A stretch of DNA of 32,886 nucleotides from a virus: IMG/VR virus record IMGVR_UViG_3300031524_000048, positions 1 through 32,886 of that record; one strand, given 5' to 3'. Under the pieces are notes generated by a model that did no database searches, was not told the origin of the DNA, and saw only the letters and a list, made by a program, of their open reading frames with translations. Positions 4,513 through 32,886 of this stretch are shown here, piece after piece (within the stretch, counting starts at the first letter, position 1; each line of letters begins with the position of its first letter). Both the position numbers and the translations under genes were made by a program.

Positions 4513-4545
4513 GCGCCTGGGTGCCTGGGTGCCCAGGCACCCGGC
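4510..4545. repeat. Octamer palindromic array, copy 1
   Basis: The array begins with the TGA stop of the antitoxin gene and runs in 8-bp units: GAGCGCCT, GGGTGCCT, GGGTGCCC, then the reverse complement AGGCACCC. Arms of 11 bp (4519-4529 and 4532-4542) flank a 2-base centre. It could fold in RNA and protect or end the upstream transcript. Confidence 0.85.
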
Positions 4546-4590
4546 CGCGTGAATCCCACCGGACATGACGAAGGCGCCGCAACGTGTACG

Positions 4591-5331
4591 ATGGCGCGCA
4601 TGAGAAATATCTGGGCCCTGGTCGTCATCCTTGCGGCTACGTCCGCGTCTGCTCAAACTGCGACCGTACCCGACGAAGCCGCGCGCACCATCACTGAGTG
4701 CGGCGCTCCCGTCAGCGACCAGCTCGTGCCCGATGTCGGCATGATTGGCCATCGCAACCGGACCCTGACCTACAGGAACTTCACCGCCGTCTATGAGCAG
4801 CGTTCCGGGCCGTGGTTTCTGGTGCGGGGAAGTTATAAGGGACGGCCAAAGGCCACGCGCGAGGACTTCATCATCGAAGTGCCGTGCATCGGCAACGCGA
4901 TGACGACCGCGCCGGCTGCTGGTACCGGGCTGACATCCACGCCTGCGCCGACACCCAGCAGTGGCGACGGGAGCGGCGCCGCGCTTTTGCTGGCAGTCAT
5001 CCTGGGCTTCTACTTCCTGCCGTGCATCGTGGCTGCCTACCGTAAGGTCCACTCCTCTGCCGGCATCGGCTTGGTCAACCTGCTGCTGGGCTGGACGCTG
5101 ATCGGCTGGGTCGTTGCCCTCGTCTGGGCATGCAGCGCCGAGACCGAGGCGCAGGTCAAAGCCCACGTCGTGGATTACGACCAGATGGCGGCCGCGATGC
5201 TTCGCGCACAGCAGCATGCCGCAACCGTGGTCGCTGCCCCGCTGCCCACACAAAGTCGGGTGATCTCCGGACCTGGACCGATGCTTGATGCTGGGCGCGC
5301 TGTGGGCAGCCTGTTCCACCGCAAGAGCTGA
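4591..5331 (+). CDS. Superinfection immunity protein (T4 Imm-like membrane domain)
   Basis: A 246-residue exported membrane protein. A signal peptide (MRNIWALVVILAATSASAQ) is followed by a soluble domain with two Cys pairs, a Pro/Thr-rich linker near residue 130, then a two-helix membrane domain: LLLAVILGFYFLPCIVAAYR and NLLLGWTLIGWVVALVWAC. The motifs LP-x-I and N-LLGWTLIGW-ALVWA are the hallmark of the Imm superinfection-immunity family (T4 Imm), which blocks DNA injection by related phages. T4 Imm is only this small domain; the periplasmic extension is unusual. The start could also be the ATG at 4600. The gene follows the toxin-antitoxin pair and ends in an octamer array, typical of an independently expressed lysogenic-conversion gene. 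Confidence 0.8.
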   Translation: MARMRNIWALVVILAATSASAQTATVPDEAARTITECGAPVSDQLVPDVGMIGHRNRTLTYRNFTAVYEQRSGPWFLVRGSYKGRPKATREDFIIEVPCIGNAMTTAPAAGTGLTSTPAPTPSSGDGSGAALLLAVILGFYFLPCIVAAYRKVHSSAGIGLVNLLLGWTLIGWVVALVWACSAETEAQVKAHVVDYDQMAAAMLRAQQHAATVVAAPLPTQSRVISGPGPMLDAGRAVGSLFHRKS

Positions 5332-5390
5332 ACGCCTGAGCGCCTGAGCGCCCGGGTGCCTGGGTGCCTGGGTGCCCAGGCACCCAGACG
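5329..5390. repeat. Octamer palindromic array, copy 2 (longest perfect arms)
   Basis: It starts with the TGA of the immunity gene. Units GAACGCCT, GAGCGCCT, GAGCGCCC, GGGTGCCT, GGGTGCCT and GGGTGCCC then flip to AGGCACCC. Perfect arms of 13 bp at 5360-5372 and 5375-5387. It fills the gap between two convergent genes, so it is well placed as a bidirectional terminator-like structure. Confidence 0.88.
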
Positions 5391-5405
5391 CGCTGTGATT
5401 CGCCC

Positions 5406-6706: not shown

Positions 6707-7048
6707 GTGAACCCCATGCCCGACGCCGCTCCCCAACTCGCGCTGCTCCGTGACCGCCTCACGTGGCTCCGGCTTTGCCACGCTGAGCCGGCTGCGTGTA
6801 TGAACTGCCTGCACACCATTGCGGAGTTCCTGGCCGGAGAGATGGACCATGACCTGCAAACCGCGCTCAACAAGTCCACCGAGAGCTACCAGGCAGAGCT
6901 GGGAGCCAACCGCTGCACGCTGGAGCAGGCGCGCGTTCTGCGCTTCCTGACCTGCTCGGCGTGCATCGCGCCTACGGCAGAAAATTATTTCGTCGCCGAC
7001 GACGACCCAATGAACATAGCAAAGCACGTAGACCGGAGTAGAGCTTGA
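6707..7048 (+). CDS. Small Cys-rich protein, first gene of the early operon
   Basis: A 113-residue protein with CHAEPAACMNC near residue 25-35 and CSAC near residue 87, which may form a zinc site. The rest is helical. The start is GTG at 6707, or ATG at 6716; neither has a strong ribosome site. It lies 26 bases beyond the -10 of the early promoter and overlaps the replication gene (TTGA). No family is recognised; first-gene position in the early operon suggests a replication accessory or regulator. Confidence 0.65.
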   Translation: MNPMPDAAPQLALLRDRLTWLRLCHAEPAACMNCLHTIAEFLAGEMDHDLQTALNKSTESYQAELGANRCTLEQARVLRFLTCSACIAPTAENYFVADDDPMNIAKHVDRSRA

Positions 7049-8586
7049 GTGTATCGATCATGGGCGCGGTGATGGACCGTGGGCCGGCTAAAGGTTCAAT
7101 GAGATCTCTTCTGCTGGCGATCGCCAACAGCGCCGACGACTTCGGGTTCGCCTGCCCCGGCATCGAGCTGCTGGCCAAGTCCTGCTGCTGGGACGAGCGC
7201 ACCGTCATCCGCAACAGCGGACGCCTGGAGGCCGAGGGCTGGATGCGCGTGGAGCGTAAGGTCCTGGGCGGCCGCGGGAATGTGTACTTCATCGACATTC
7301 AGAAGCTCGGGGTCATCCCGACCTCAACGGCGCGGCACAGCCCCATGTGGGCGGACATGCAGCGGCTGATGCGCGCGCTGAACACAGGTGACAAACTGTA
7401 CCAAAGAGGCGGCCGCCTGAAGTTCGAAAAACCCGCCGATGGTGCGGGTGAAGTGGTCACCGGCGACCTCTTCGGCGACGAAAACACAGGTGACATTTTG
7501 TCACCTGAGTTTGGGCGCGCTGAGCCCCAAAATGGGGGCACAATCGACCGGATTGCCGCCATTGCCTCAGTTACGGGCGATTTAGGGGCTGAAACCGCCT
7601 CAGAAGATGGAAACTCAGGTGACAAAATGTCACCTGACAACCCACACCAGTGTCACCTGACAGGTGACATTTTAAGCTCGCCCTTTAAGTACTTAACCGT
7701 TACTGAACCGTTACACAACCGTAAGACCCCCCAACCCCCCGCAAGCGGGGGGAGCGGGTTGGAACTTTCCGACCAGGTCTCGGCTCAAGGCGTCGAGCTG
7801 GTGCTGCCCCACCCCGACGCTCAACCCGGCGACGCCGACTTCGCGCTGAACGTGGGGCTGGCGTCGCGCTGGGTGCTGCGGCGGTGCGGGATCTCGAACT
7901 CGCGGATGGAAAAGCACGTCACCGCGGCGCTGACCCTGCGCATGAAGTCCACCGGCGAGGACCTGCCGGCCGTCGCCCAACTCGCCGCCGCGAACAACGC
8001 GGCCTACACCGCTGCCTTCGCTGCCGGCGATATGCGCTTTGGGCCGTGGAGCGTCCCTGCGTTCTTCGGCCAGGGGCACTGGACCAGCAGCGCGACGTGG
8101 CCGTGGGTCGACGCAGCGCGGCGATCGCCTTCCGTTGCGCGATACGATGACAGCCCCGAAGCCGAGGCGTTCCGCGCCGCGGCTGAAGCCGCCGCGAATG
8201 AACGGCGTGCCGCGTGGACCGAGAGCAACGCCGACCAGATCGCTGCGCTCGACGTGCCGGAGGAGGCGAAGGCCGCACTCTCCACCGTGGTCACATCGCT
8301 GCGCGCCGTTGCCGGCAGCCTGCGCGATGGCGAGGCGCTCGACGTCGCAGATCAGCGGCTGTGTGAGCTCGAGGCCGCGATGCTCGATGCGCTGGTGGCG
8401 CATGTGCCGGCAGCGAAGGCCGCGAACGATGAGATCGACGCCAGGGCGTCGCAGCTCCCGCTGAACCTCACCCGCGCGCAGTTCGCCGCGCAACTCGTCC
8501 CGATGCGGCGCAAGAAGATCTGCGACGCCGTCGACGCGCCCTACCTGTCGCTGTTCCACATGCCGGACTTTTCTTCGACCGCCTGA
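7045..8586 (+). CDS. Replication initiation protein with internal origin
   Basis: A 513-residue protein. The N-terminal 100 residues form a winged helix-turn-helix of the phage replisome-organiser kind: MRSLLLAIANSADDFGFACP, GIELLAKSCCWDERTVIRNS, LEAEGWMRVERK. A low-complexity centre (residues about 110-250) coincides with a cluster of iterons and AT-rich repeats in the DNA. The C-terminal part is helical and Ala-rich. As with lambda O, the protein probably binds sites inside its own gene and recruits the helicase. The start is TTG at 7045, coupled to the previous stop and preceded by GGAG, or ATG at 7060. It is followed by an octamer array and the HerA-like gene. Confidence 0.75.
   Translation: MSVSIMGAVMDRGPAKGSMRSLLLAIANSADDFGFACPGIELLAKSCCWDERTVIRNSGRLEAEGWMRVERKVLGGRGNVYFIDIQKLGVIPTSTARHSPMWADMQRLMRALNTGDKLYQRGGRLKFEKPADGAGEVVTGDLFGDENTGDILSPEFGRAEPQNGGTIDRIAAIASVTGDLGAETASEDGNSGDKMSPDNPHQCHLTGDILSSPFKYLTVTEPLHNRKTPQPPASGGSGLELSDQVSAQGVELVLPHPDAQPGDADFALNVGLASRWVLRRCGISNSRMEKHVTAALTLRMKSTGEDLPAVAQLAAANNAAYTAAFAAGDMRFGPWSVPAFFGQGHWTSSATWPWVDAARRSPSVARYDDSPEAEAFRAAAEAAANERRAAWTESNADQIAALDVPEEAKAALSTVVTSLRAVAGSLRDGEALDVADQRLCELEAAMLDALVAHVPAAKAANDEIDARASQLPLNLTRAQFAAQLVPMRRKKICDAVDAPYLSLFHMPDFSSTA
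7385..7669. other. Candidate replication origin: seven 9-bp iterons
   Basis: The 9-mer CAGGTGACA or its complement occurs seven times in 285 bp: forward at 7385, 7487, 7616 and 7661, reverse at 7499, 7628 and 7651. They pair into CAGGTGACA-N3-TGTCACCTG palindromes at 7487-7507 and 7616-7636, and a head-to-head pair at 7651-7669. They lie inside the initiator gene, next to AT-rich repeats, as in lambda. Confidence 0.85.
7670..7752. other. Candidate origin unwinding region and hairpin
   Basis: Directly after the iterons come TTTTAAG, the perfect palindrome TTAAGTACTTAA (7685-7696), and three 11-bp spaced repeats, AACCGTTAC at 7695 and 7706 and AACCGTAAG at 7717. Then follows a perfect hairpin, CCCCCCGC (7735-7742) and GCGGGGGG (7745-7752). 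AT-rich repeats fit an unwinding element; the hairpin could load a primase or helicase. Confidence 0.6.
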
Positions 8587-8625
8587 GCGCCTGAGCGCCT
8601 GGGCACCCAGGCACCCAGGCACCCA
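8584..8625. repeat. Octamer palindromic array, copy 3
   Basis: It starts with the TGA of the replication gene: GAGCGCCT, GAGCGCCT, GGGCACCC, AGGCACCC, AGGCACCC. The inverted core GCCTGGG-CA-CCCAGGC spans 8597-8612. It separates the initiator from the ATPase gene. Confidence 0.85.
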
Positions 8626-8654: not shown

Positions 8655-10439
8655 GTGGAAAAACTGACCATCGGCACCACCGGAAGTCATCGCAAGCCGT
8701 TCACTCTGCCTCTGAGTCTCGTGACGTACACGCAGGCCATCCTCGCGCGCAAGCGTTCCGGCAAGAGCTACACCGGTTCCGTAGAGGCCGAGGAGATGCT
8801 CAAGGCCAAGCAGCAGATCGCGGTGATCGATCCGACCTCGGCGTGGTGGGGACTGCGCTCCAGCGCCGACGGCAGGTCGGCCGGCTTCGACATCATCGTC
8901 TTCGGCGGGGACCACGCCGACGCGCCGCTGGACTACCGCGCGGGCAAGGCGATGGCTACCGCGCTAGTCGAGCATGGCTTCTCCGCCATCTTCGACATCG
9001 GCAACTTCCACACCGAGGAGCAGGTGCAGTTCGTCATGGACCTGTGCAGCGAGCTGCTCCGCATCAACCGCAACGCCATGCACCTGTTCATGGACGAGGC
9101 CGACACCTTCGCTCCCCAGCGCGGCAGCAAGCTCCAGATCAAATGCCTGGGTGCCGTCAGTCGTCTGGTGAAGCAGGGCGGCATCAAGGGCGTGGGCTTC
9201 ACGATGATAAGCCAGCGTTCCGCATCGCTCAGTTGGGACGTGCTGAGCCAGGTGGACATCCTCACCGTGCTGCGCATGAGCGCGCCCCACGATCTCCGGC
9301 CGGTGCAGAACTGGCTCCAGAGCGAGACGACGAAAGAGTTCGCCGCCCAGGTCTACGCCGAGCAGCCATCGCTGCCGGTGGGCGTGGCGTTCGTTGCCTC
9401 AGCGCCGCTCGGCATCGCGCAGCGCGTGGAGATACGCAAGCGCGAGACGTTCAACTCCGGAGCTACTCCGAAGCCGGGAGAGCGGGCCATCGTCCCGAAG
9501 ATCCTCGCGCAGATCGACATTGCGAAGCTGGGCCAGAAGATCGCAGACAGCGTGAAGCGCGCGCGCGAAGAGTCGCCGGAGTTCCTCAAGCAGCGCATCG
9601 CAGCACTCGAAAAAGAAGTCGCCAAAGGAGGCAAGCCCAGCATGGAGCTCCAAAAGCACATCAAGGACCTGGAGGAGAAGGCCGCGCTCTACGACCAGGC
9701 GAAGGTTGATCTAGAAGCCGCGCAGCAGCAGGCCGAGAGCGTGAAAGCTAAACTGACCTCGGTCGGCAACATTCTAGGTTCGATGAAGGAGCTGTGCGAT
9801 CGCGGCCTCGCTGCGCTCGCGACCGAGGGTGTGGTCAAGCCGGTCCCGTCAAAGCAGCCACCGACCAGGTATCTCGCTACGCCCATTGCCCCGATCGTCC
9901 AGCCCGTCCATGCGGCACCTGTCCCGCGCCGCGCGCCATCCGCGCCACCGCCCGTCGACGGCGAGCTAAAGCTCCGCGGCAAGAGCATGGCGATGCTTGC
10001 GGCCTGCGTCGGCATGTATCCGGCTGGGCTGACCCCAGCACAGGTCGCCATGCAGGCCGGCATGAAGCGCAGCAGTGGGACGTTTGACGACTACAAATCT
10101 CTCCTCAAGAGATCTGGCTGCGTCCAGTTCGTCGACGGGCTCTGGTATGCGACCGAGGAAGGTCTGCGTCGCCTCGACACTACGGCGCCCTCTCCCCCCA
10201 CTACCACAGAGGAGGCTCTCGCGCTCTGGATGCCGAAGCTGCGCGGCAAGTCAAAGGTGCTGCTAGAGGTTTTGGTCGCCCAGCGTGGACAACCTCTCGT
10301 CTACGAGAAACTCGCCGAACTGGCGGGCATGCAACGCAGCGGAACCTTTGACGACTACCTCAGCCTCCTGCGCTCCGCTGGCCTCATCACTACCGGCGCC
10401 GGCACGGCGCGCGCCAACGCGGAGGTTTTGTTTCTATGA
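8655..10439 (+). CDS. HerA/FtsK-type P-loop ATPase with two C-terminal winged-helix repeats
   Basis: A 594-residue ATPase. Walker A is ARKRSGKS (residues 31-38), Walker B is HLFMDEAD (143-150), followed by a sensor-like ISQR (185-188) and a VDILTVLRMSAPHDL stretch, all typical of HerA hexameric DNA translocases. A coiled coil lies at about 315-385 and a Pro-rich linker at 395-435. Two homologous winged-helix-like units follow, about 436-506 and 526-594, sharing LRGKS and RSxGTFDDYxSLL. The GTG start at 8655 has GGAGG 8 bases upstream. Located between initiator and ParA, it may act as replicative helicase, as a pump in segregation, or in DNA processing. Confidence 0.82.
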   Translation: MEKLTIGTTGSHRKPFTLPLSLVTYTQAILARKRSGKSYTGSVEAEEMLKAKQQIAVIDPTSAWWGLRSSADGRSAGFDIIVFGGDHADAPLDYRAGKAMATALVEHGFSAIFDIGNFHTEEQVQFVMDLCSELLRINRNAMHLFMDEADTFAPQRGSKLQIKCLGAVSRLVKQGGIKGVGFTMISQRSASLSWDVLSQVDILTVLRMSAPHDLRPVQNWLQSETTKEFAAQVYAEQPSLPVGVAFVASAPLGIAQRVEIRKRETFNSGATPKPGERAIVPKILAQIDIAKLGQKIADSVKRAREESPEFLKQRIAALEKEVAKGGKPSMELQKHIKDLEEKAALYDQAKVDLEAAQQQAESVKAKLTSVGNILGSMKELCDRGLAALATEGVVKPVPSKQPPTRYLATPIAPIVQPVHAAPVPRRAPSAPPPVDGELKLRGKSMAMLAACVGMYPAGLTPAQVAMQAGMKRSSGTFDDYKSLLKRSGCVQFVDGLWYATEEGLRRLDTTAPSPPTTTEEALALWMPKLRGKSKVLLEVLVAQRGQPLVYEKLAELAGMQRSGTFDDYLSLLRSAGLITTGAGTARANAEVLFL

Positions 10440-10469
10440 GCGTGGGTGCCTGGGCACCCAGGCACCCGC
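10437..10469. repeat. Octamer palindromic array, copy 4
   Basis: It begins with the TGA of the HerA-like gene. GGGTGCCTGGG (10444-10454) and CCCAGGCACCC (10457-10467) form 11-bp arms around CA. It lies in the 75-bp gap before ParA, whose own ribosome site is downstream of it. Confidence 0.85.
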
Positions 10470-10514
10470 AGTTCCTTTTTCCCGAGCATCAACCCCGAGC
10501 ACTTAGGAGCCAAC

Positions 10515-11135
10515 ATGATCCTGACCGTAGCGAGTTACAAAGGCGGCGTGGGCAAGACCACCACCGCGGTCCACGCGGCCGCCTTCCTCAATCAACTCTC
10601 GAAAAACAAGCCGGCGTTGCTGCTGGATGGCGACTCCACGCGCAACGCCACGGCCTGGGCGCAGCGCGCGAAAGCCGGCGCGTTCCCTCTGCGCGTCGAG
10701 CCGATCGATATGGCTGCGAAGCTGGCGCGCGAGTATCCGCACATCGTGATCGACACCGGGCAGCGGCCGAGCGCCGCCGATCTCGAAGCCGCGGCCGAGG
10801 GTTGCGACCTGCTGGTGATTCCCGCCGTGCCATCCGCTCTCGACACTGACGGGCTGGGGCAGACGGTGCGTGCGTTGCAGCAGCTCAAGATCGACAACTA
10901 CAAAGTGCTGCTTACGCGCGTGGCTCCGGACGCAGCGCGCCAGGCAGCGGACCTCCGCGAGCTGCTGCGCTCGATCGGCGCACCGGTATTCAAAGCAGAG
11001 ATCCCACGGCTCAAGGCCTTCGAGAAGGCCGCGGGCGAAGGGCTGATCGTGGACGCCGTCGACGACCGCCAGGCTGAGCGCGCGTGGGCTGCCTACGAAG
11101 CCGCCGGGCACGAACTCAAGGCAGGTGCGCGATGA
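10515..11135 (+). CDS. parA: ParA-type partition ATPase
   Basis: A 206-residue protein of the small ParA class. The deviant Walker A is KGGVGKTT (residues 9-16) with the signature Lys9. LLLDGDSTRNATAW (35-48) is the switch region and HIVID (76-80) the second Walker motif. There is no N-terminal HTH domain, so transcription control is left to a partner. AGGAG lies 7 bases before the ATG at 10515. Such ATPases coat the nucleoid and move plasmid DNA bound by a centromere protein; the ribbon-helix-helix protein two genes on is the natural partner. The stop overlaps the next start (ATGA). Confidence 0.9.
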   Translation: MILTVASYKGGVGKTTTAVHAAAFLNQLSKNKPALLLDGDSTRNATAWAQRAKAGAFPLRVEPIDMAAKLAREYPHIVIDTGQRPSAADLEAAAEGCDLLVIPAVPSALDTDGLGQTVRALQQLKIDNYKVLLTRVAPDAARQAADLRELLRSIGAPVFKAEIPRLKAFEKAAGEGLIVDAVDDRQAERAWAAYEAAGHELKAGAR

Positions 11136-11353
11136 GGAGACTCTTCGTGGTCGAGTATCGCGACTCAAAGCTCCTGACCTGGAGTGCAGTGAAGGGCTTC
11201 CTGACTTCAGAGGCGGCCGACGCTTATCAGCGCACGGTCGCCGCTGGTCTGCCGGCGCGCGTGGTGCCCTATGCGCCCGAGGAGATGCTCAAGGTCGCGA
11301 CGAAGAACGATGTGATGAAGCTATCGGCAGCGAAGGCGGGGGTGCGTCCATGA
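11132..11353 (+). CDS. Small unassigned protein between ParA and its presumed partner
   Basis: A 73-residue protein that overlaps the genes on both sides by ATGA, so the three are translated together. It looks like an alpha/beta fold: RRLFVVEYRDSKLLTWSAVK, then a helix (TSEAADAYQRTVAAG), then a strand and a second helix. No family is recognised. Its location inside a partition operon suggests an accessory role. Confidence 0.65.
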   Translation: MRRLFVVEYRDSKLLTWSAVKGFLTSEAADAYQRTVAAGLPARVVPYAPEEMLKVATKNDVMKLSAAKAGVRP

Positions 11354-11637
11354 ATCTGGCAAAAGCGTTCGAAGGAATGAAGGCGGTGAAGACTGTGGGT
11401 ACTCAGGCGTCGGGCACCCGGGCACCTGGGCGCTCAGGCACCCAGGCGCTCAAGCGCCCAGCCGCTGGTCTTCCCTTGCAGGGGACGGCGAAGCGATCGC
11501 ACCCGGACTTCGCGCCGGTGAAGGTCTACCTGCGCAAGGAGACGCGCCGCGCGGCCGAGCGTAAGTGGGTGGACGCCAACGGCGGCGACTTCTCCGACCT
11601 GGTCGAGATGTTGTTGCAGAAGTATGTGGGTGCCTGA
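11350..11637 (+). CDS. Ribbon-helix-helix protein, likely centromere-binding partner of ParA
   Basis: A 95-residue protein. Residues 56-93 (PVKVYLRKETRRAAERKWVD, then GDFSDLVEMLLQKYV) follow the ribbon-helix-helix pattern: one beta-strand, a helix, a turn and a second helix. Such proteins bind direct repeats as dimers of dimers and serve as ParB in type Ib partition. The N-terminal part would contact ParA; residues about 16-38 are encoded by an in-frame octamer array (GTQASGTRAPGRSGTQALKR), giving an Arg/Gly/Ala linker. The ATG at 11350 overlaps the previous stop. A second array carries its stop codon. The centromere site is not identified. Confidence 0.7.
   Translation: MNLAKAFEGMKAVKTVGTQASGTRAPGRSGTQALKRPAAGLPLQGTAKRSHPDFAPVKVYLRKETRRAAERKWVDANGGDFSDLVEMLLQKYVGA
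11398..11463 (+). repeat. Octamer array translated in frame, copy 5
   Basis: About eight units of the AGGCACCC, AGGCGCTC and GGGCACCC type lie in one orientation inside the ribbon-helix-helix gene. Since 8 bp times 3 is 24 bp, the frame cycles every 8 residues and stays free of stops, giving G-T-Q-A-L/S type repeats. It is the only copy fully inside a gene. Confidence 0.85.
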
Positions 11638-11990: not shown

Positions 11991-12020
11991 GCGCCCGGGA
12001 GCCTGGGCACCCAGGCACCC
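11988..12020. repeat. Octamer palindromic array, copy 7
   Basis: It starts with the TGA of the preceding gene and shares 27 identical bases with copy 6, then adds AGGCACCC. The next gene's ribosome site, AAAGGAG, follows at once. Confidence 0.85.
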
Positions 12021-12033
12021 AAAGGAGAGAGCG

Positions 12034-12210
12034 ATGGCCGAGCGCTTCACGAAGGGGACGGTCGAGGCGAGTGTGTGGTGTGCCAAGTGCGGGAAGGCCA
12101 CGCTGCACCGCATCGATAACGGACTCCGCGGGGCATGCCTGGTCTGCCTGAAGAAGCTGGAAGATCTGCCGGCGGTGCCCCCGGCCGCGGTGCAGGAGAA
12201 TCTGTTTTGA
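12034..12210 (+). CDS. Zinc-ribbon protein of 58 residues
   Basis: Two CxxC knuckles are visible, CAKC (16-19) and CLVC (35-38), with 15 residues between, as in a treble-clef or ribbon zinc site. AAAGGAG precedes the ATG at 12034. The remainder is a short acidic-Pro tail. It is likely a small nucleic-acid or protein adaptor; the exact target is unknown. The KH-protein gene follows after 14 bases. Confidence 0.7.
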   Translation: MAERFTKGTVEASVWCAKCGKATLHRIDNGLRGACLVCLKKLEDLPAVPPAAVQENLF

Positions 12211-12224
12211 AAAGGAGCCACACG

Positions 12225-12515
12225 ATGACCGATGAAGAGAAGTGCAGGAGCATGGAGATGTTAGCGAGGACGATGGTGACAGCCGTGGTGAATACGCCGG
12301 ACGCGGTGAATGTCGCGGGATCGATGTGTGGGGACCAGGGGATCTTGCTGACCATCGTCACGGCGCCGGGCGATGTGGGCCAGATGATCGGTAAACAGGG
12401 CAGAATGGCTCGGTCCATCCGCACGGTGCTCGGCGCGGCCTGCGGCCGGGAAGGCCTTCACCTCGAGCTGAACCTCGTCGAGTCGGATCGTGACAGGGAA
12501 GGGCTCCGGCGATGA
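12225..12515 (+). CDS. KH-domain RNA-binding protein, KhpA-like
   Basis: A 96-residue single-KH protein. The RNA-binding loop is GKQG (56-59) in the context GQMIGKQGRMARSIRTVLGA, nearly the consensus of bacterial KhpA. It is preceded by ILLTIVTAPGD and followed by LHLELNLVE, the beta strands of the fold. Known KhpA proteins bind many RNAs and act in cell-length control and small-RNA traffic. AAAAGGAG lies well before the ATG at 12225. Carriage by a phage is uncommon; it could bind phage or host mRNAs, for example to steer translation of leaderless transcripts, which is speculation. The stop overlaps the next start (ATGA). Confidence 0.82.
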   Translation: MTDEEKCRSMEMLARTMVTAVVNTPDAVNVAGSMCGDQGILLTIVTAPGDVGQMIGKQGRMARSIRTVLGAACGREGLHLELNLVESDRDREGLRR

Positions 12516-14292: not shown

Positions 14293-15051
14293 ATGAGGGT
14301 TTCGCAGGTGGCTAAGTCGGGTAAGCACGAGGCGATGGACGCGGAGACGGTGGCCGATCTTCTCGGCGTCTCGACGCGGCAGCTCAATAACTATATCAAT
14401 CATAAGGGTTTACCGTCGTCTGGCTCCGGCCGGTCGCGGAGCTTCGTGTGGTGCGACGTGCTGGAGTGGTTCGTCGGCTACCGGATCGCGCTCGAGCATG
14501 GTGACGGAAATGGCGGAAGTGACGACGGCGATCTTGACGGTGAGAGTTCCGACAGCGGCCGCGGTGGCAAGGAAGACATCCGCGCGGCGAACCTGCGCAA
14601 GACCCGCGCCGAGGCCAACCTGAAGGAGCTGCAACTCGGCCGGCTGCGGGGCCAGGTAATCTCGATCCCGGACGCAAAGACGCGGCTGGACCGGATGATG
14701 GGCAACCTCCGCGCGAAGCTGCTGAGCCTGGCGCCGAAGCTGGCCAGCCGCATCGAGGGCGAGAAGACGCGGACCACGCGCGAGGCCGTCATCAAGGAGG
14801 AGCTCGAGAACCTCTGCCGCGAGATCTCCACTGGCGCCGTCGTCGACCTGCCGGTGGACCAGGCGGAGGGTGCCGGCGACGTCGTCGACGAGCTGGCAGC
14901 GTCCGCGGCCGGCCCGATCTACCCACACGTGCTGGGCTATCTCCTCACCATCGCCACCCAGCCGGAGGCGTTGCGGGAGGCCAACGCGCTGGTGCGCGCT
15001 GCGCGCGATCTGCGTGACCAGGTCAAGGGGTACTTCCGTGCTCGCGTCTAG
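14293..15051 (+). CDS. Terminase small subunit, Nu1-like
   Basis: A 252-residue DNA-packaging protein. Residues about 15-60 are the winged-helix DNA-binding domain (DAETVADLLGVSTRQLNNYI, then a wing and FVWCDVLEWFVGY). An acidic Gly/Asp linker follows, then a long helical part beginning IRAANLRKTRAEANLKELQL. That order matches lambda Nu1 (181 residues) with a longer tail. The protein recognises cos or pac DNA and holds it for the large subunit. It overlaps the large-subunit gene by 14 bases. No good ribosome site is visible at the ATG. Confidence 0.88.
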   Translation: MRVSQVAKSGKHEAMDAETVADLLGVSTRQLNNYINHKGLPSSGSGRSRSFVWCDVLEWFVGYRIALEHGDGNGGSDDGDLDGESSDSGRGGKEDIRAANLRKTRAEANLKELQLGRLRGQVISIPDAKTRLDRMMGNLRAKLLSLAPKLASRIEGEKTRTTREAVIKEELENLCREISTGAVVDLPVDQAEGAGDVVDELAASAAGPIYPHVLGYLLTIATQPEALREANALVRAARDLRDQVKGYFRARV

Positions 15052-17026
15052 CCGCGAGGGCCTCGCAGCGTTTGACCAGGCGCTCTTCGATAGCTGCGCG
15101 CTGGTGCGGCCGCCGGAGCGGCTGGACCTCGCCGAGTGGTGCGACAAGTACGCAATGCTCTCGCCGGAAGGGTCCGCGCGCCCCGGCAAATTCCACATCT
15201 CCGACGCGGAGTACCAGCGCGAGCCTATGCAGGTCCTCAGCCCCGGCACGCCATTTCAGGAAGTCGTGCTGTGCTGGGCGTCGCAGGTCGGCAAGACGCA
15301 GATCGTGCTGTACCTGGCCGGCTATCACATCGAGCACGACCCCGCGCCCATCCTCTTCGTCGAGCCCTCCGAGGATCTCTGCAAGGTCATCTCCAACGAC
15401 CGTATCGATCCGATGATCCGCGACACGCCCCGGCTCCGGGACATCTTCGCCGCCATGAAGGGCAGAAAGGACACGATGCACAAGCCCTTCCCTGGCGGCC
15501 AGCTAGATTTCGCCTGGGCCAGCTCGCCGGCGCAGATGGCCTCTCGGCCGAAGCGCGTCCTCATCACCGACGAGGAAGGCCGCTACGAGGCGGCCGCCAA
15601 CAAGGAAGGCGACCCGGTCGACCAGGGCAAGAAGCGTCTCGCGACATTCCCCAACCGCAAGCACGCGCGCGTGTCATCGCCGGCGCTGCGGAGGACCTGC
15701 CGCATCACCAAAGCGCTCGGCGACTCAGACCAGCGCTACTTCTACGTCGCCTGCCCGCAATGTGGTCACCAGCAGACCCTGCGCTGGGAGCAGGTGAAGT
15801 GGCCCGTCGATCATCCGGAGGACGCCTACTATGTCTGCGAGCAGAACGGCTGCGAGATCACCGAGGCCGACAAGTACGCCATGATCCGCAACGGCAAGTG
15901 GATCGCGCACAACCCCGGTGCGCGAACGGCCGGCTTCCATCTCAACGCGTTGTACTCGACCATCGGCTACACCTGGGGCGAGATCGCGGCCGAGTTCGTG
16001 AAGTGCCAGGGCATCCCTGACAAGCTGCAGGTCTTCACCAACACGGTGCTTGCGCTGCCCTGGGATGAGCAGGCCGAGGGCGCGGACCTGAACGAGTTGC
16101 AGAAGCGCGTCGAGGAGTATGACGCGCCGGCGCCGGCGTGGGTCGTCGCGGTGACCTGTGGAGCAGACGTGCAGCCGGACCGCATCGAGGCGACCAGGTG
16201 GGGCTGGGGACTGGATGAGGTCTCGGGCGTGATCGAGCACCGCGTCTTCTACGGAGCTACGTCTGACGGCCGCAAGGGCGCGTGGCTGGAGTTCGATGCC
16301 TGGCGCCGGATGCGCGTCGAGCATGAGAGCGGCCTCGATCTGCCCACCGCATGCACGTTCGTCGACTCCGGAGACGGCAACCGCACCCAGGCGGTGTATG
16401 ACTATTGCCGCTGGCGCGAAGGCCAGGGCGTCTTCGCATGCAAGGGCAGCTCGTTGACCGCGGCGCCGCTGGTGAATGAGGCTAAGCGCGTCGGCCGGCA
16501 GCGCGTTCTGCTGGTGATGGTCGGCGCGTCGACGGCGAAGGATGTGATCTTCGCGCGGCTCAAGATCGCTGATAGCACCGCGCCGGGCTACATCCACTTC
16601 CCGGCGGACCCCGACGCGGGCTGCGGCCGCGAGTTTTTTGAGCATCTCACCGCAGAGGCCTTGGTTACAAGGCAAACTAAAGGTGGGGAGACATCCAAAT
16701 GGGAACCGATCAGAAAGCGCAACGAGTCACTGGACTGCGCGGTCTACGCCTATGCAGCCCGGCTGTTCATCCGAGTGAAGCTGCAACACCTGGCGCGGCA
16801 GATGGCGGCGCGAGCCGCGGCGCTCAAGCCGGAGATAGTCCAGGCGAAGCGCGAAGCCTTCGTGCGGCGGCAGATGGCCGCGGCCGGGCTGCTGTCCTCA
16901 CCATCACCGGCTTCCTCGGCGGCATCACCCTCGCGGCCTGAGCGGGCACCGCAGCCCACGTCGAAAAAGCGGAAGAAAGTCGTGCGTCGCCCTGGTTTTG
17001 GCTGGATTCACGGAAATTCCCGCTGA
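15038..17026 (+). CDS. Terminase large subunit, lambda GpA family
   Basis: A 662-residue packaging motor, near the length of lambda gpA (641). The ATPase has a Walker-A-like ASQVGKT (81-87) and a Walker B VLITDEEGRY (174-183). A zinc ribbon follows, C239-P-Q-C242 with C267 and C272. The nuclease part has acidic residues in CGADVQPDRIEATRWGWG and FVDSGDGN. The GTG at 15038 is chosen because AAGGGG lies 7 bases before and the longer frame only reads through Nu1 sequence. It cuts concatemeric DNA and pumps it into the prohead through the portal. Confidence 0.93.
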   Translation: MLASSREGLAAFDQALFDSCALVRPPERLDLAEWCDKYAMLSPEGSARPGKFHISDAEYQREPMQVLSPGTPFQEVVLCWASQVGKTQIVLYLAGYHIEHDPAPILFVEPSEDLCKVISNDRIDPMIRDTPRLRDIFAAMKGRKDTMHKPFPGGQLDFAWASSPAQMASRPKRVLITDEEGRYEAAANKEGDPVDQGKKRLATFPNRKHARVSSPALRRTCRITKALGDSDQRYFYVACPQCGHQQTLRWEQVKWPVDHPEDAYYVCEQNGCEITEADKYAMIRNGKWIAHNPGARTAGFHLNALYSTIGYTWGEIAAEFVKCQGIPDKLQVFTNTVLALPWDEQAEGADLNELQKRVEEYDAPAPAWVVAVTCGADVQPDRIEATRWGWGLDEVSGVIEHRVFYGATSDGRKGAWLEFDAWRRMRVEHESGLDLPTACTFVDSGDGNRTQAVYDYCRWREGQGVFACKGSSLTAAPLVNEAKRVGRQRVLLVMVGASTAKDVIFARLKIADSTAPGYIHFPADPDAGCGREFFEHLTAEALVTRQTKGGETSKWEPIRKRNESLDCAVYAYAARLFIRVKLQHLARQMAARAAALKPEIVQAKREAFVRRQMAAAGLLSSPSPASSAASPSRPERAPQPTSKKRKKVVRRPGFGWIHGNSR

Positions 17027-19892: not shown

Positions 19893-20125
19893 AGCTGATG
19901 GAGCTGGGGCAGCTCGCGTATGACGGCTATCGCCGGACCACTGGCGGCGTGTCGTTGGTCTCAGGCGCGCCGCTCCCGCTGTGGGAGGAGCTGGCCTGGC
20001 ATATTCAGGCAGCGTGGGCCGTCGCCGCGGGCGATGTTGCCTGCCACATTATGGGCGACACCACCGCGAAGCTCTCGAAACTGTCCGAAAAACTCCCAAA
20101 TCCACCGGACGCGCCCGGAATTTGA
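19889..20125 (+). CDS. Small phage protein, second of the tandem pair
   Basis: A 78-residue paralogue of the preceding gene: LGQLAYDGYRRTTGGVSLVS and LPLWEELAWHIQAAWAVAA align without gaps. It has a longer C-terminal tail (KLSKLSEKLPNPPDAPGI). It overlaps the first copy by four bases. After its stop lies a candidate promoter for the capsid gene. Confidence 0.7.
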   Translation: MKLMELGQLAYDGYRRTTGGVSLVSGAPLPLWEELAWHIQAAWAVAAGDVACHIMGDTTAKLSKLSEKLPNPPDAPGI

Positions 20126-20151
20126 CAGGATTTCGCCGTTGGCTCGATAAA
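20122..20151 (+). promoter_or_regulatory. Candidate promoter of the protease-capsid gene
   Basis: TTGACA (20122-20127), 18 bases, GATAAA (20146-20151), with the ATG 10 bases past the -10. The preceding 7 bases extend a shared ATTTGAC-x-G-x-ATTTC motif, 13 of 15 identical to 17026-17040. No ribosome site precedes the ATG. Confidence 0.6.
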
Positions 20152-20160
20152 CCGAGCGCG

Positions 20161-22323
20161 ATGTCCAAGCAGCAGCCCCTGACAAACCGGTACTCCGGCG
20201 TCTTGAAGACGCTCTCCGCCGCCGAGGCCAAGAACCTCGACGAGCGCGGCATCCCGAAGAAGCTTGGGCGCCAGGCGCGCAAGGCCACCATCTCCGGCTA
20301 CGACAAGGACACCCACACCGTCACCATGGCGGTGAGCTCGTCGACGCCGGTCGAGCGCTTCTACGGCATCGAGACCCTCTCGCACGAGAAGGGCGCGATC
20401 CGCACCGGCCGGTTGAAGAACGGCATAGCTCTGCTCTTCAACCACGACATGGACCAGCACCTCGGCCGGTCACAGAGCTTCGAGCTTGGCGATCCGCTGC
20501 ACGTCACATCGCGCTTCGGCCCCAGCCCTCTGGCAGTCGAAAAGGAAGCCGACGTCGCCAGCGGCATCCTCGTCGATGTCTCGATCGGCTACCTGGTACA
20601 CGAGTGGGCGATCACGGAGAACAAGGACGGCAGCCGCGACTATCTGGCCGTCGACTGGGAGCTGCTCGAAGTTTCACTGGTCACCGTGCCGGCAGATCCC
20701 ACCGTCGGCGTCGGCCGCTCCTCCGAGGAGGTCGCCGTCAAGGTGCGCAGCTTTACCAAGGCTGATGACGCGGAACGCGCGGCCGAGACCGATGACGACG
20801 GCGGCGAAGGCGACGACGACGAAGACGATGCCGCCACCGGCAGCGACGCCGAGCGCGCCGCAACCCCCACGACTTTAGAAACACCCGCACCACCCACCCC
20901 AGCAACACCACAAAGGACCCACACCATGGCAGAAGCGACCGTTGACCTCGCAGCACAGAATGAGGCGCGCACCGCGCGGCTCCGCACGCTGCACACTACG
21001 TACCCCAAGCTCTTCTCGGAGCGCCAGCTCAACGACGCGATTGCGCTCGACATCCCTGCGCAGCGCGTGCAGGAGTCGATCTTCGATGGCATCGTCCGCG
21101 CCGCCGAAGCCACCGACGTCCCGACCATTGGCGACGACACCTTTGGCCGCATGAGCACGAAGGAGATCCGGAACTACTCCATCGCAGCGGCGTATCGCGC
21201 GGCCGTCAACCTTACCAACCCCGGCACGTTCCGCGGCAAGGAAGAGGGCGGCTTCGAGCGCGAGGTGTCCGAGTCTCTCCTCAAGGAAGCCGAGGCCAAC
21301 GGTGTACGCACCCTGGGCGCGGGCGTTGTCATCCCCAGCGTATCGAACAAGCGTCTGTGGCAGGCACAGCTTGAGCGCGCCGTCACCTCCGGCGGTAACG
21401 CTGGAACGGCGTCGAACTTCACCGTCGTCAACCCCGATCCGATCGAGCTGCTCCGCACGCAGACCGGGTGCCTTGCACTCGGCGCACGTATGCTCAGCGG
21501 CCTCCATGGAGCGATGCAGATGACGCGCCAGAACGCGGCAGCCAGCAGCTCATGGCTCGCTGAAAGCGGGTCGGTGAGCGAGTCGGATCCTGGCTTCGAT
21601 TTCTTTGTGATGAAGCCGAACCGTCTCAGCATCGCCAACGCCTACACCCGCGACTTCCTCGCGCAGTCGGACTTTGCGATCGAAGCGCTCCTCGCCGATG
21701 ACCGCCGCGAGGTCCTCGGCATCTCACTCGACACCGCAGGCATCGCTGGCTCCGGCACCGCGCCGGTTCCCAAAGGCCTGTTCAACTACACCGGCCTCGG
21801 TGCCGTGCTGGCGGGCTCCACGCGCAGCGCGACGACCGGCGCAGTCACCGCAGGCCTGGGCGGCGTACCGCTCAGCTTCGTGGACATCGCTCACATGGAA
21901 TCCGCGCTCGGCACCGGAAACGCTGGCCAGCTCGGTACCCCCGCATGGCTGACCACCTTCGGCATCCGTGGCGCTCTGCTCAGCACCCCGAAGATCCCCG
22001 GCACCGCGACCGACTTCATCTGGCCTGACTCCCCGCTCAACTCCCTCGGGCTACAGGCTGGTCCGCGCGGCTACCAGGCCAAGTGCATCACCAACTCGGC
22101 GCTGACTGGCTTCACTGCCAACAGCGTCGCCGGTTGCCATGCTGCGATTCTCGGGATCTGGAACCAGATGCTCATCGGCGACTGGGGACTCTCCGAGGTG
22201 ATTGTCGATCCGTACACCGGCGCAGCGAACGCCACGATCAACATCACCGAGCATGCCTTCTACGACATCAACTTCCGCCACATCGCTGCCTTCATCGCCT
22301 GCACCTCGGCGGTCCCCAGCTAG
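20161..22323 (+). CDS. Fused prohead protease and HK97-type major capsid protein
   Basis: A 720-residue polyprotein. Residues 1-190 are the maturation protease: His95 in LLFNHDMDQHLGRS, Ser141 in GILVDVSIGYLV and a Glu in ELLEVSLVTVPADP, the HK97 (U35) catalytic arrangement. Residues 190-255 are an Asp/Glu and then Thr/Pro-rich linker. From Met256 (MAEATVDLAAQNEARTARLR) follows a delta/scaffold-like helix region, then the HK97 fold (TGCLALGARMLSGLHGAMQM, AESGSVSESDPGFDFFVMKP, and the P-domain). A ribosome site AAAGGA lies 8 bases before Met256, so a separate capsid chain may be made. The protein cleaves itself and forms the shell. Confidence 0.9.
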   Translation: MSKQQPLTNRYSGVLKTLSAAEAKNLDERGIPKKLGRQARKATISGYDKDTHTVTMAVSSSTPVERFYGIETLSHEKGAIRTGRLKNGIALLFNHDMDQHLGRSQSFELGDPLHVTSRFGPSPLAVEKEADVASGILVDVSIGYLVHEWAITENKDGSRDYLAVDWELLEVSLVTVPADPTVGVGRSSEEVAVKVRSFTKADDAERAAETDDDGGEGDDDEDDAATGSDAERAATPTTLETPAPPTPATPQRTHTMAEATVDLAAQNEARTARLRTLHTTYPKLFSERQLNDAIALDIPAQRVQESIFDGIVRAAEATDVPTIGDDTFGRMSTKEIRNYSIAAAYRAAVNLTNPGTFRGKEEGGFEREVSESLLKEAEANGVRTLGAGVVIPSVSNKRLWQAQLERAVTSGGNAGTASNFTVVNPDPIELLRTQTGCLALGARMLSGLHGAMQMTRQNAAASSSWLAESGSVSESDPGFDFFVMKPNRLSIANAYTRDFLAQSDFAIEALLADDRREVLGISLDTAGIAGSGTAPVPKGLFNYTGLGAVLAGSTRSATTGAVTAGLGGVPLSFVDIAHMESALGTGNAGQLGTPAWLTTFGIRGALLSTPKIPGTATDFIWPDSPLNSLGLQAGPRGYQAKCITNSALTGFTANSVAGCHAAILGIWNQMLIGDWGLSEVIVDPYTGAANATINITEHAFYDINFRHIAAFIACTSAVPS
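20912..20928 (+). promoter_or_regulatory. Internal ribosome site and start in the capsid gene
   Basis: AAAGGA at 20912-20917 and ATG at 20926, spaced 8 bases, in frame with the long gene. Initiation here would give a 465-residue capsid precursor without the protease. Confidence 0.55.
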
Positions 22324-31811: not shown

Positions 31812-32886
31812 CCATCATCCGCGTCACCAATCCGCTCCAGCCCAGCGAAGGCACCGAGCGCCGCACGCTCGACGGCTGGCAGCACACGCTCGACGAGCTG
31901 ATGCGCGACGACTGGGAGCTGCGCTTCGCGCCGGCACCGAAGGAAGGCTACGAGACCTGGGCGCGGAACGTCACCGTCTCGCTCAACGGCCACGTCTGGG
32001 GCCGCTCGATGTGGACCGAGATTACGCCTCCGGAGTGCAGCACCATCGTCATCGTGCCGGGCGTTGCCGGCGGCAGCCTGCTGCGCACGCTGGCGTCGAT
32101 CGCCATCATGGCCGCGGCTGTGGTCACCACGGTGCTCACCGCGGGCGCCGGCGTGGCCCTCTTCGGCCTGACCGTCGCGATGACCTCCGCGTTGCTGGGC
32201 GGCGCAGTCAGCATCGCGGGCAGCCTGATCCTCTCCGCGTTCGGCTCATCGCAGCCCAGCAACAAGGGAACCTCGGCCAGCTACGATCCTGACGGTCCGC
32301 GATCGCTGGCGCAGTCGGGCGTCGTCATCCCCAAAGGCAATGGCACCTTCCGCTGGGGCGGCAATATCATCTCCAGCTTCACGGACCTCGCCGGCAGCGA
32401 CCAGTACATCAACGTGCTGGTGTGCTTCGGCTTTGGGCCGGCGCGCGCGCTCTCTTCTATCCAGATCAACGGCAAGGACATTTCGAGCTACCAGAATGTG
32501 CAGTACTACGTCCGGCTCGGCACCAACTCCCAGACCGAGATCTCGAACTTCAACCGCATCGTCAACGGCTATCCGCAGGACACGCAGTGTCTCGCCGGCG
32601 TGCCGGTGGTGGTACCCGGAACCGGCGACCTGACCCAGGCGTTGCAGGTGGACATCCAGTTCCCGGACGGCATCTTCGTCAACACCAATGACGGCAACAT
32701 CATCCCCGCGGTGATCACCTACCTGGTCGAGTACTCGCTGCATGGCTCGGGCGTTTGGCTGCCGGTGCTCCAGCCGCGCACCACGGCCAGCATCTACGAC
32801 TATCATCTCGACGGCTCGGCTTACCTGCCCTACGCGTGGGGCGCGGTGGCCACCGACCTGCCGCCCAGCTCCGGTGTGGTCTACGC
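31805..32886 (+). CDS. Tail-tip protein, gpI-J-like, cut by the window edge
   Basis: The ATG at 31805 lies within the end of the K gene, and the frame is open to the last base, 360 codons so far. It starts MVTIIRVTNPLQPSEGTERR. A hydrophobic Gly/Ala-rich region at about residues 95-145 (TLASIAIMAAAVVTTVLTAG) resembles lambda gpI, and the following SYDPDGPRSLAQSGVVIPKG, then GTFRWGGNIISSFTDLAGSD, resembles the N-terminus of tail-tip host-specificity proteins. So I- and J-type parts appear fused. It would form the central tail fibre and receptor contact. The C-terminal receptor part is outside the window. Confidence 0.8.
   Translation, partial: MVTIIRVTNPLQPSEGTERRTLDGWQHTLDELMRDDWELRFAPAPKEGYETWARNVTVSLNGHVWGRSMWTEITPPECSTIVIVPGVAGGSLLRTLASIAIMAAAVVTTVLTAGAGVALFGLTVAMTSALLGGAVSIAGSLILSAFGSSQPSNKGTSASYDPDGPRSLAQSGVVIPKGNGTFRWGGNIISSFTDLAGSDQYINVLVCFGFGPARALSSIQINGKDISSYQNVQYYVRLGTNSQTEISNFNRIVNGYPQDTQCLAGVPVVVPGTGDLTQALQVDIQFPDGIFVNTNDGNIIPAVITYLVEYSLHGSGVWLPVLQPRTTASIYDYHLDGSAYLPYAWGAVATDLPPSSGVVY

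Follow-up and report, generated by a model that had tools for sequence, protein, structure and literature searches.

Differences in origin specificity among lambdoid initiators have long been known; iterons of plasmids are usually found outside the rep gene. In passages of two published accounts, the lambda origin is described as four iterons of 18 bp adjoining an AT-rich sequence of 38 bp (PMC3349717), and as four inverted repeats that bind O dimers and are followed by about 40 bp of A+T (PMC5043065); a passage of the latter also states that plasmid iterons bind a monomeric initiator.

Here, we analyzed a 32,886-base virus record, IMG/VR IMGVR_UViG_3300031524_000048 (the whole stretch is referred to as the window), in which the original prediction had placed an iteron origin within a replication initiator gene. 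We consider it highly probable (about 0.86) that a temperate tailed phage carries here, within the gene for its initiator, a theta-type origin of the lambda O kind. In the titles and abstracts of open PMC articles, a body of literature with most subscription journals outside it, we found no description of phage initiator genes with GGTGACA iterons or of co-variation between an initiator helix and its repeats.

Genomic Context of the Initiator Gene

Judged by its sequence, the source is a temperate tailed phage, and the window encodes a tyrosine integrase, a lambda-type gpA terminase, a lambda-family portal, a head protease/major head protein, a tape measure, and minor tail proteins. A single 780-aa ORF (19981–22323) matches both prohead protease (S78) and HK97-type capsid, i.e., a protease-capsid fusion, and the early region includes a gene with a KhpA/KhpB-type KH RNA-binding domain (12135–12515; Pfam E 5.7e-14). 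The next gene after the initiator (8655–10439) encodes a 594-aa HerA/FtsK-like ATPase (PHROG 2666, E 7.7e-13; NCBIfam HerA, E 2.2e-8, far under the cut-off) and is separate from the gpA-type terminase gene at 14870–17026. No helicase loader (P, DnaC, DnaI) or DnaB was recognized among the window proteins scanned.

A separate repeat, the octamer GGGTGCCT together with its inverse, forms short arrays at six places of the early region (Table 1), and with up to two mismatches GCGCCTGGGTGCC has 23 matches in the window vs. 3.7 expected. The arrays flank a ParA-type gene (10446–11135) and the 3′ end of the initiator gene, and are possibly partition sites or operators. One of them lies inside the 5′ coding part of the small gene after ParA (11350–11637), whose product has a basic N-terminus and, by eye, the look of a ribbon-helix-helix protein; it had no Pfam match and is a candidate ParB-like partner.

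Table 1. Positions of the initiator, iteron, and octamer features in the window.
Feature	Position	Strand	Remarks
O-like replication initiator gene, 513 aa, TTG start	7045..8586	+	PHROG 391, PHROG 1032 profiles
Winged-helix (WH) DNA-binding domain, residues 1–90	7045..7314	+	AlphaFold2 pLDDT mostly 93–98
Recognition helix, residues 51–64	7195..7236	+	AlphaFold2 model helix
Iteron half-site 1, single, CAGGTGACA	7385..7393	+	Exact match
Coding region of the disordered linker, residues 116–254, carrying the iterons	7390..7806	+	pLDDT <50
Palindromic pair 1, convergent (7487+, 7499−)	7487..7507	.	Core GGTGACA-N3-TGTCACC at 7489–7505
Palindromic pair 2, convergent (7616+, 7628−)	7616..7636	.	Spacing as in pair 1: GGTGACA-N3-TGTCACC
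Divergent pair 3 (7651−, 7661+)	7651..7669	.	TGTCACCTGACAGGTGACA = TGTCACCTG-A-CAGGTGACA
AT-rich patch, presumed unwinding element	7670..7719	.	Adjoins last half-site
Helical C-terminal part, about residues 255–505	7807..8559	+	Model helices, moderate confidence
Octamer arrays	4513–4548, 5328–5391, 8587–8622, 10438–10465, 11413–11449, 11991–12018

Domain Organization of the Initiator

The first 90 of the 513 residues matched the PHROG 391 profile ("replication initiation O-like", E 4.7e-12). PHROG 1032 matched as well (E 1.1e-9), and Pfam HTH_36 scored 24.2 bits (E 3e-5), just below its cut-off of 25. Since the PHROG 391 alignment ends at residue 90, the middle and the C-terminus are unmatched and may hold a diverged domain; for the C-terminal part, there was no PHROG match and no credible Pfam match. 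The TTG start is supported by relatives, in which MSxxxM begins at the same place. An identical initiator gene is present in a 37,867-base IMG/VR contig; close relatives in viral contigs were restricted to the source contig and locus L006 (53% identity across the first 101 residues), and full-length tblastn against phages returned no match.

AlphaFold2 modeling with 33 sequences predicted a confident winged helix, a disordered linker, and a helical C-terminal part (Table 1). Compared with solved structures, the WH model gave a best Z of 10.6 (69 residues, rmsd 1.6) with RbkR bound to DNA. Its structural matches comprise many winged-helix proteins, which for a predicted model shows the fold and not the function. 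No initiator ranked above the general winged-helix matches, and the structure 4pql ("N-terminal domain of DNA binding protein"), which we take to be a plasmid RepA domain, reached a Z of only 8.2. Foldseek found no match for the WH domain at E up to 0.001, and a sequence search of solved structures with the initiator yielded only weak, unspecific matches.

Positions 1, 2, and 6 of such recognition helices commonly contact bases. In the modeled helix, positions 2 and 6 are occupied by R52 (7198–7200) and R56 (7210–7212), which correspond to positions 53 and 57 of the family alignment used below.

Iteron Array Within the Initiator Gene

An exact search recovered the seven copies of the 9-mer CAGGTGACA that had been predicted in both orientations within 285 bp (7385–7669), four on the plus strand and three on the minus strand, starting at 7385+, 7487+, 7499−, 7616+, 7628−, 7651−, and 7661+. 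No further copy, exact or with one mismatch, was present in the remaining window. The chance expectation (a mean of 6.43) counts matches with up to one mismatch, and all seven observed copies are exact. When synonymous codons were reshuffled with the protein kept the same (2000 shuffles), CAGGTGACA occurred at most four times vs. the seven observed, and GGTGACA, in synonymous shuffles of the initiator gene (n = 2000), reached a maximum of six vs. seven. The three palindromic pairs of the prediction are indeed present, two convergent and one divergent, with the 7385 copy left unpaired; the copies are irregularly spaced, less regularly than in relatives. The base preceding GGTGACA is A in the window and usually G in relatives.

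The repeats occupy codons 114–209, so that nearly all fall within the segment predicted by AlphaFold2 to be unstructured, in agreement with the proposal that the iterons sit in a loosely constrained protein center. The linker would tolerate DNA sites because the protein is disordered there. Directly beyond the array, AT content at 7670–7709 rises to 60% vs. 34.7% gene-wide, and the most AT-rich 40-mers of the initiator gene begin at 7665–7687. The check by GC-skew minimum that accompanied the prediction was of no help: the cumulative skew has its minimum at 32,872 and its maximum at 16,888, and it is uninformative as evidence for an origin because the ends of this linear contig are arbitrary.

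Relatives Identified Through the Repeat

Viral contigs were searched for GGTGACA-N3-TGTCACC without the use of the protein, which gave at least 120 stretches and, with L006 added, 121 loci. Among the viral loci listed, the palindrome lay inside an O-like WH ORF in 55 of 121, vs. 1 of 119 new loci listed for a scrambled palindrome of equal composition (the 120th control stretch, a locus already in the set, was left out); the WH profile behind the figure of 55 was trained on that same locus set. With a profile built from the window and L006 alone, the counts were 40 of 121 listed loci, those two included, vs. 0 of 119. In genome contigs, O-like genes accounted for only 2 of the 119 loci listed for a related 18-mer palindrome, so the pattern there is mostly background. 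A search of the E. coli genome with the gene of locus L052 gave no match.

After removal of identical copies and of genes with fewer than two half-sites, 55 non-redundant genes remained, two of them from Vibrio phages, with 277 half-sites in total, most of which lie a dozen to several dozen residues past the WH domain. Neighboring pairs with the 10-bp spacing of the palindrome numbered 60, partly by selection, and direct copies at 21–22 bp accounted for 48 of the 222 neighboring pairs. Of the plus-strand copies, 117 were in codon phase 0, 61 in phase 2, and none in phase 1, in which GGTGACA would yield an in-frame TGA stop. As far as these genes tell, the same DNA is kept across relatives while the encoded peptide changes. 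In 54 genes, AT content past the last copy exceeded the gene mean by 9.6 points at 0–20 bp and by 17.2 points at 20–40 bp, returning to the mean by 40 bp. The recognition helices of the GGTGACA genes were nearly uniform at the two positions introduced above, with R57 in 55/55 and R53 in 54/55; HTH_36 proteins with R53 and R57 and without GGTGACA also occur (L092, L114, L119, and L212).

Co-variation of the Recognition Helix with the Repeat

Two further samples of 80 loci each were drawn by protein. Sample A2 was drawn with two peptide patterns, one of them overlapping the recognition helix; the genes of 400 nt or longer (75 of 80 loci, five shorter ones dropped) formed 54 clusters. In sample A4, the patterns lie outside the recognition helix, and 79 loci (L044, already in the set, was left out) likewise formed 54 clusters. 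Internal repeats exceeded those of synonymous shuffles (p up to 0.05) in 28/54 clusters of A2 and 52/54 of A4, and the AT peak past the array was present in both samples, neither of which was chosen by repeat.

At least three GTGACA copies were found in 10/10 A2 clusters with R53 and R57, vs. 0/44 others. For both samples together, R53,Y57 went with GTGCAA (30/30 clusters), R53,N57 with GTGCAG (6/6), and R53,R57 with GTGACA (14/16, the remaining two having GTGTCA); the 23 S53,R57 clusters divided into GTGTCA (17), GTGTAG (4), and other motifs (2). The other classes of residues 53/57 were small and mixed, and in 10 of 108 clusters no GTGNNN motif was present three times; the iteron labels presuppose a GTG start and thereby favor motifs of the GTGNNN type. 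By normalized mutual information with the repeat, column 57 ranked first of the 74–75 WH columns in each sample and kept this rank after identical helices were collapsed; position 53 ranked 4 and 10 in the two samples. Such co-variation points indirectly to a reading of the repeats by the WH domain, and it suggests that two initiator residues, 53 and 57, largely set the DNA letters that are read.

Reach of the Proposed Specificity Code

We lean, by a narrow margin, towards a readable code in the WH initiators of tailed phages, in which a (G)GGTG core is followed by two or three bases set by residues 53/57. The corresponding table, held with the same slight preference, would read GTGACA for R,R; GTGCAA for R,Y; mostly GTGCAG for R,N/D; and mostly GTGTCA for S,R. 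The WH alignment is short and the WH tree poorly supported: on supported branches only, there were three independent pairs, two to three concordant and none opposite (not significant), and with every branch of the best tree included there were nine pairs, seven to eight concordant and none opposite (sign p 0.008–0.016).

In a prospective test, the rule was fixed first, and 18 named phages were then retrieved, four of which had no prediction; at the level of 5-mers, 7 of the 14 predictions proved correct. R,R predicted GTGAC correctly in 2 of 4 named phages (Fisher p 0.039 vs. other phages) and R,non-R predicted GTGCA in 5 of 7, one of them a tie (Fisher p 0.0025 vs. other phages). The S-class predictions (GTGGGG, GTGGC) failed in 3 of 3 and were rejected. 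Three phages seen before the rule was fixed also fit the code, namely, Bordetella PHB09 (R,Y; GGGTGCA ×7), Mesorhizobium P1 (R,R; GGTGACA ×5), and Curtobacterium Root (R,R; GTGACG ×9). The nine GTGACG copies of Root (L366), an actinobacterial phage, lie in gene 1501–2133, and GTGAC may thus be a shared core with a variable sixth base. On these comparisons, the code appears good within near families and holds only partly beyond them.

Origin Model and Alternative Explanations

In the proposed origin, the N-terminal winged helix would bind GGTGACA half-sites. On GGTGACA-N3-TGTCACC, where one half-site starts 10 bp (about one helical turn) from the other, it presumably acts as a dimer, and it would also bind the further half-sites. 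The bound array would then open the AT-rich patch directly 3′ of it, and the C-terminal part may recruit the host helicase, directly or via a loader. The repeats, their location, conservation in relatives, spacing, the AT patch, and the helix-repeat co-variation are all shown at the level of sequence.

The sites might instead be operators through which the WH protein only autoregulates its own gene or a neighboring promoter, with the origin elsewhere. The fold is common to MarR-type repressors, and binding alone would leave an identical sequence picture, but the sites lie 340–625 bp into the coding region and not at its 5′ end, a sharply placed AT-rich patch follows the array in 54 relatives, and in several named relatives the initiator gene adjoins a gene for a lambda-P-like loader, a DnaB-type helicase, or a DnaI loader, which fits an initiator role. 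We therefore regard operators as unlikely. Even less probable is the binding of some other phage or host protein, e.g., a partition or transcription factor, with the initiator match being coincidental: the phage does have a ParA-type gene, but the repeat co-varies with residues in the recognition helix of the cis-encoded protein, and the octamer arrays suit the partition genes better.

Selection on the protein, i.e., on a repeated GD-x-x-SP peptide, would explain why all four plus copies in the window share one frame and encode GD(K/I), and why two minus copies encode SP. However, the 7651 minus copy is in a codon phase different from that of the other two minus copies and encodes CHL, the segment is predicted to be disordered, synonymous shuffles fail to reach the observed count, and 61 of 178 plus copies in relatives are read in another phase, which gives a different peptide. 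Because relatives conserve the DNA in either of two codon phases, a protein-level repeat as the cause was ruled out, and we give this explanation the least weight of all.

The origin reading is thus preferred, and the proposal that the array pins down both origin and initiator is supported by the O-like profile match, the recurring half-site in O-like genes, the AT-rich neighbor, and the helix-repeat co-variation, which probably place both elements of an uncultivated phage. The lambda arrangement, an origin contained in the gene for its own initiator, is seen again, with iterons of the GGTGACA type, among phages from several groups of bacteria. Beyond that arrangement, the added interest is the specificity code. 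Since the binding site lies within the gene of its binder, phage genome collections contain many matched protein-site pairs, and the origin choice of O-type initiators becomes a residue-to-iteron table open to direct binding comparison. Site and protein, being in the same gene, are co-inherited, so the origin type may often be readable from the protein; if the code is true, origins could be located in unannotated phages from the initiator protein.

Comparison with Known Systems

The iteron plasmids (Rep_3/RepA type) resemble the window in having arrays of initiator-specific repeats and an AT-rich region, and no Rep_3 match was found in the window with Pfam or PHROG profiles. The HTH_36-type initiators of tailed phages in PHROG 391, 1032, 8540, and 270 match the window's N-terminal WH domain at E 4.7e-12 to 6e-5, with PHROG 678 matching only at E 0.38. 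Internal repeats and an AT patch are a group property of these five families and are common to the window, whereas the window's C-terminus matches none of them, and the close whole-length relatives of the window initiator come down to L006 alone. Vibrio phages D279 and 1.205.O and Mesorhizobium phage vB_MseS-P1 carry four to five GGTGACA copies in the annotated initiator gene just past the WH domain, although the two Vibrio phages differ in having only direct copies, 21–30 bp apart, without a palindromic pair.

As in the window, the iterons of lambda lie in the initiator gene (gene O) between the N-terminal DNA-binding domain and the C-terminal part; its sites are inverted repeats, and an AT-rich stretch of ~40 bp (77.5% AT vs. 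51.9%) stands beside the last iteron. The annotated lambda iterons are spaced 20–24 bp apart, and direct copies in the relatives of the window 21–22 bp. Lambda differs in its top repeat, ATCCCTC vs. the GGTGACA half-sites, and the window differs in its irregular spacing and in that no P-type loader was recognized. The family WH profile did not match lambda O at E up to 10, the window initiator had no match to PHROG 277 (the lambda O protein family), and the C-terminus of lambda O matches the C-terminal part of PHROG 391, while that of the window matches neither. As its WH domain is not detectably that of lambda O, the window initiator is taken to work in a lambda-O-like manner and is not filed under the lambda O family. 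Taken together, the comparison supports a putative lambda-type origin with a different iteron and a different WH class.
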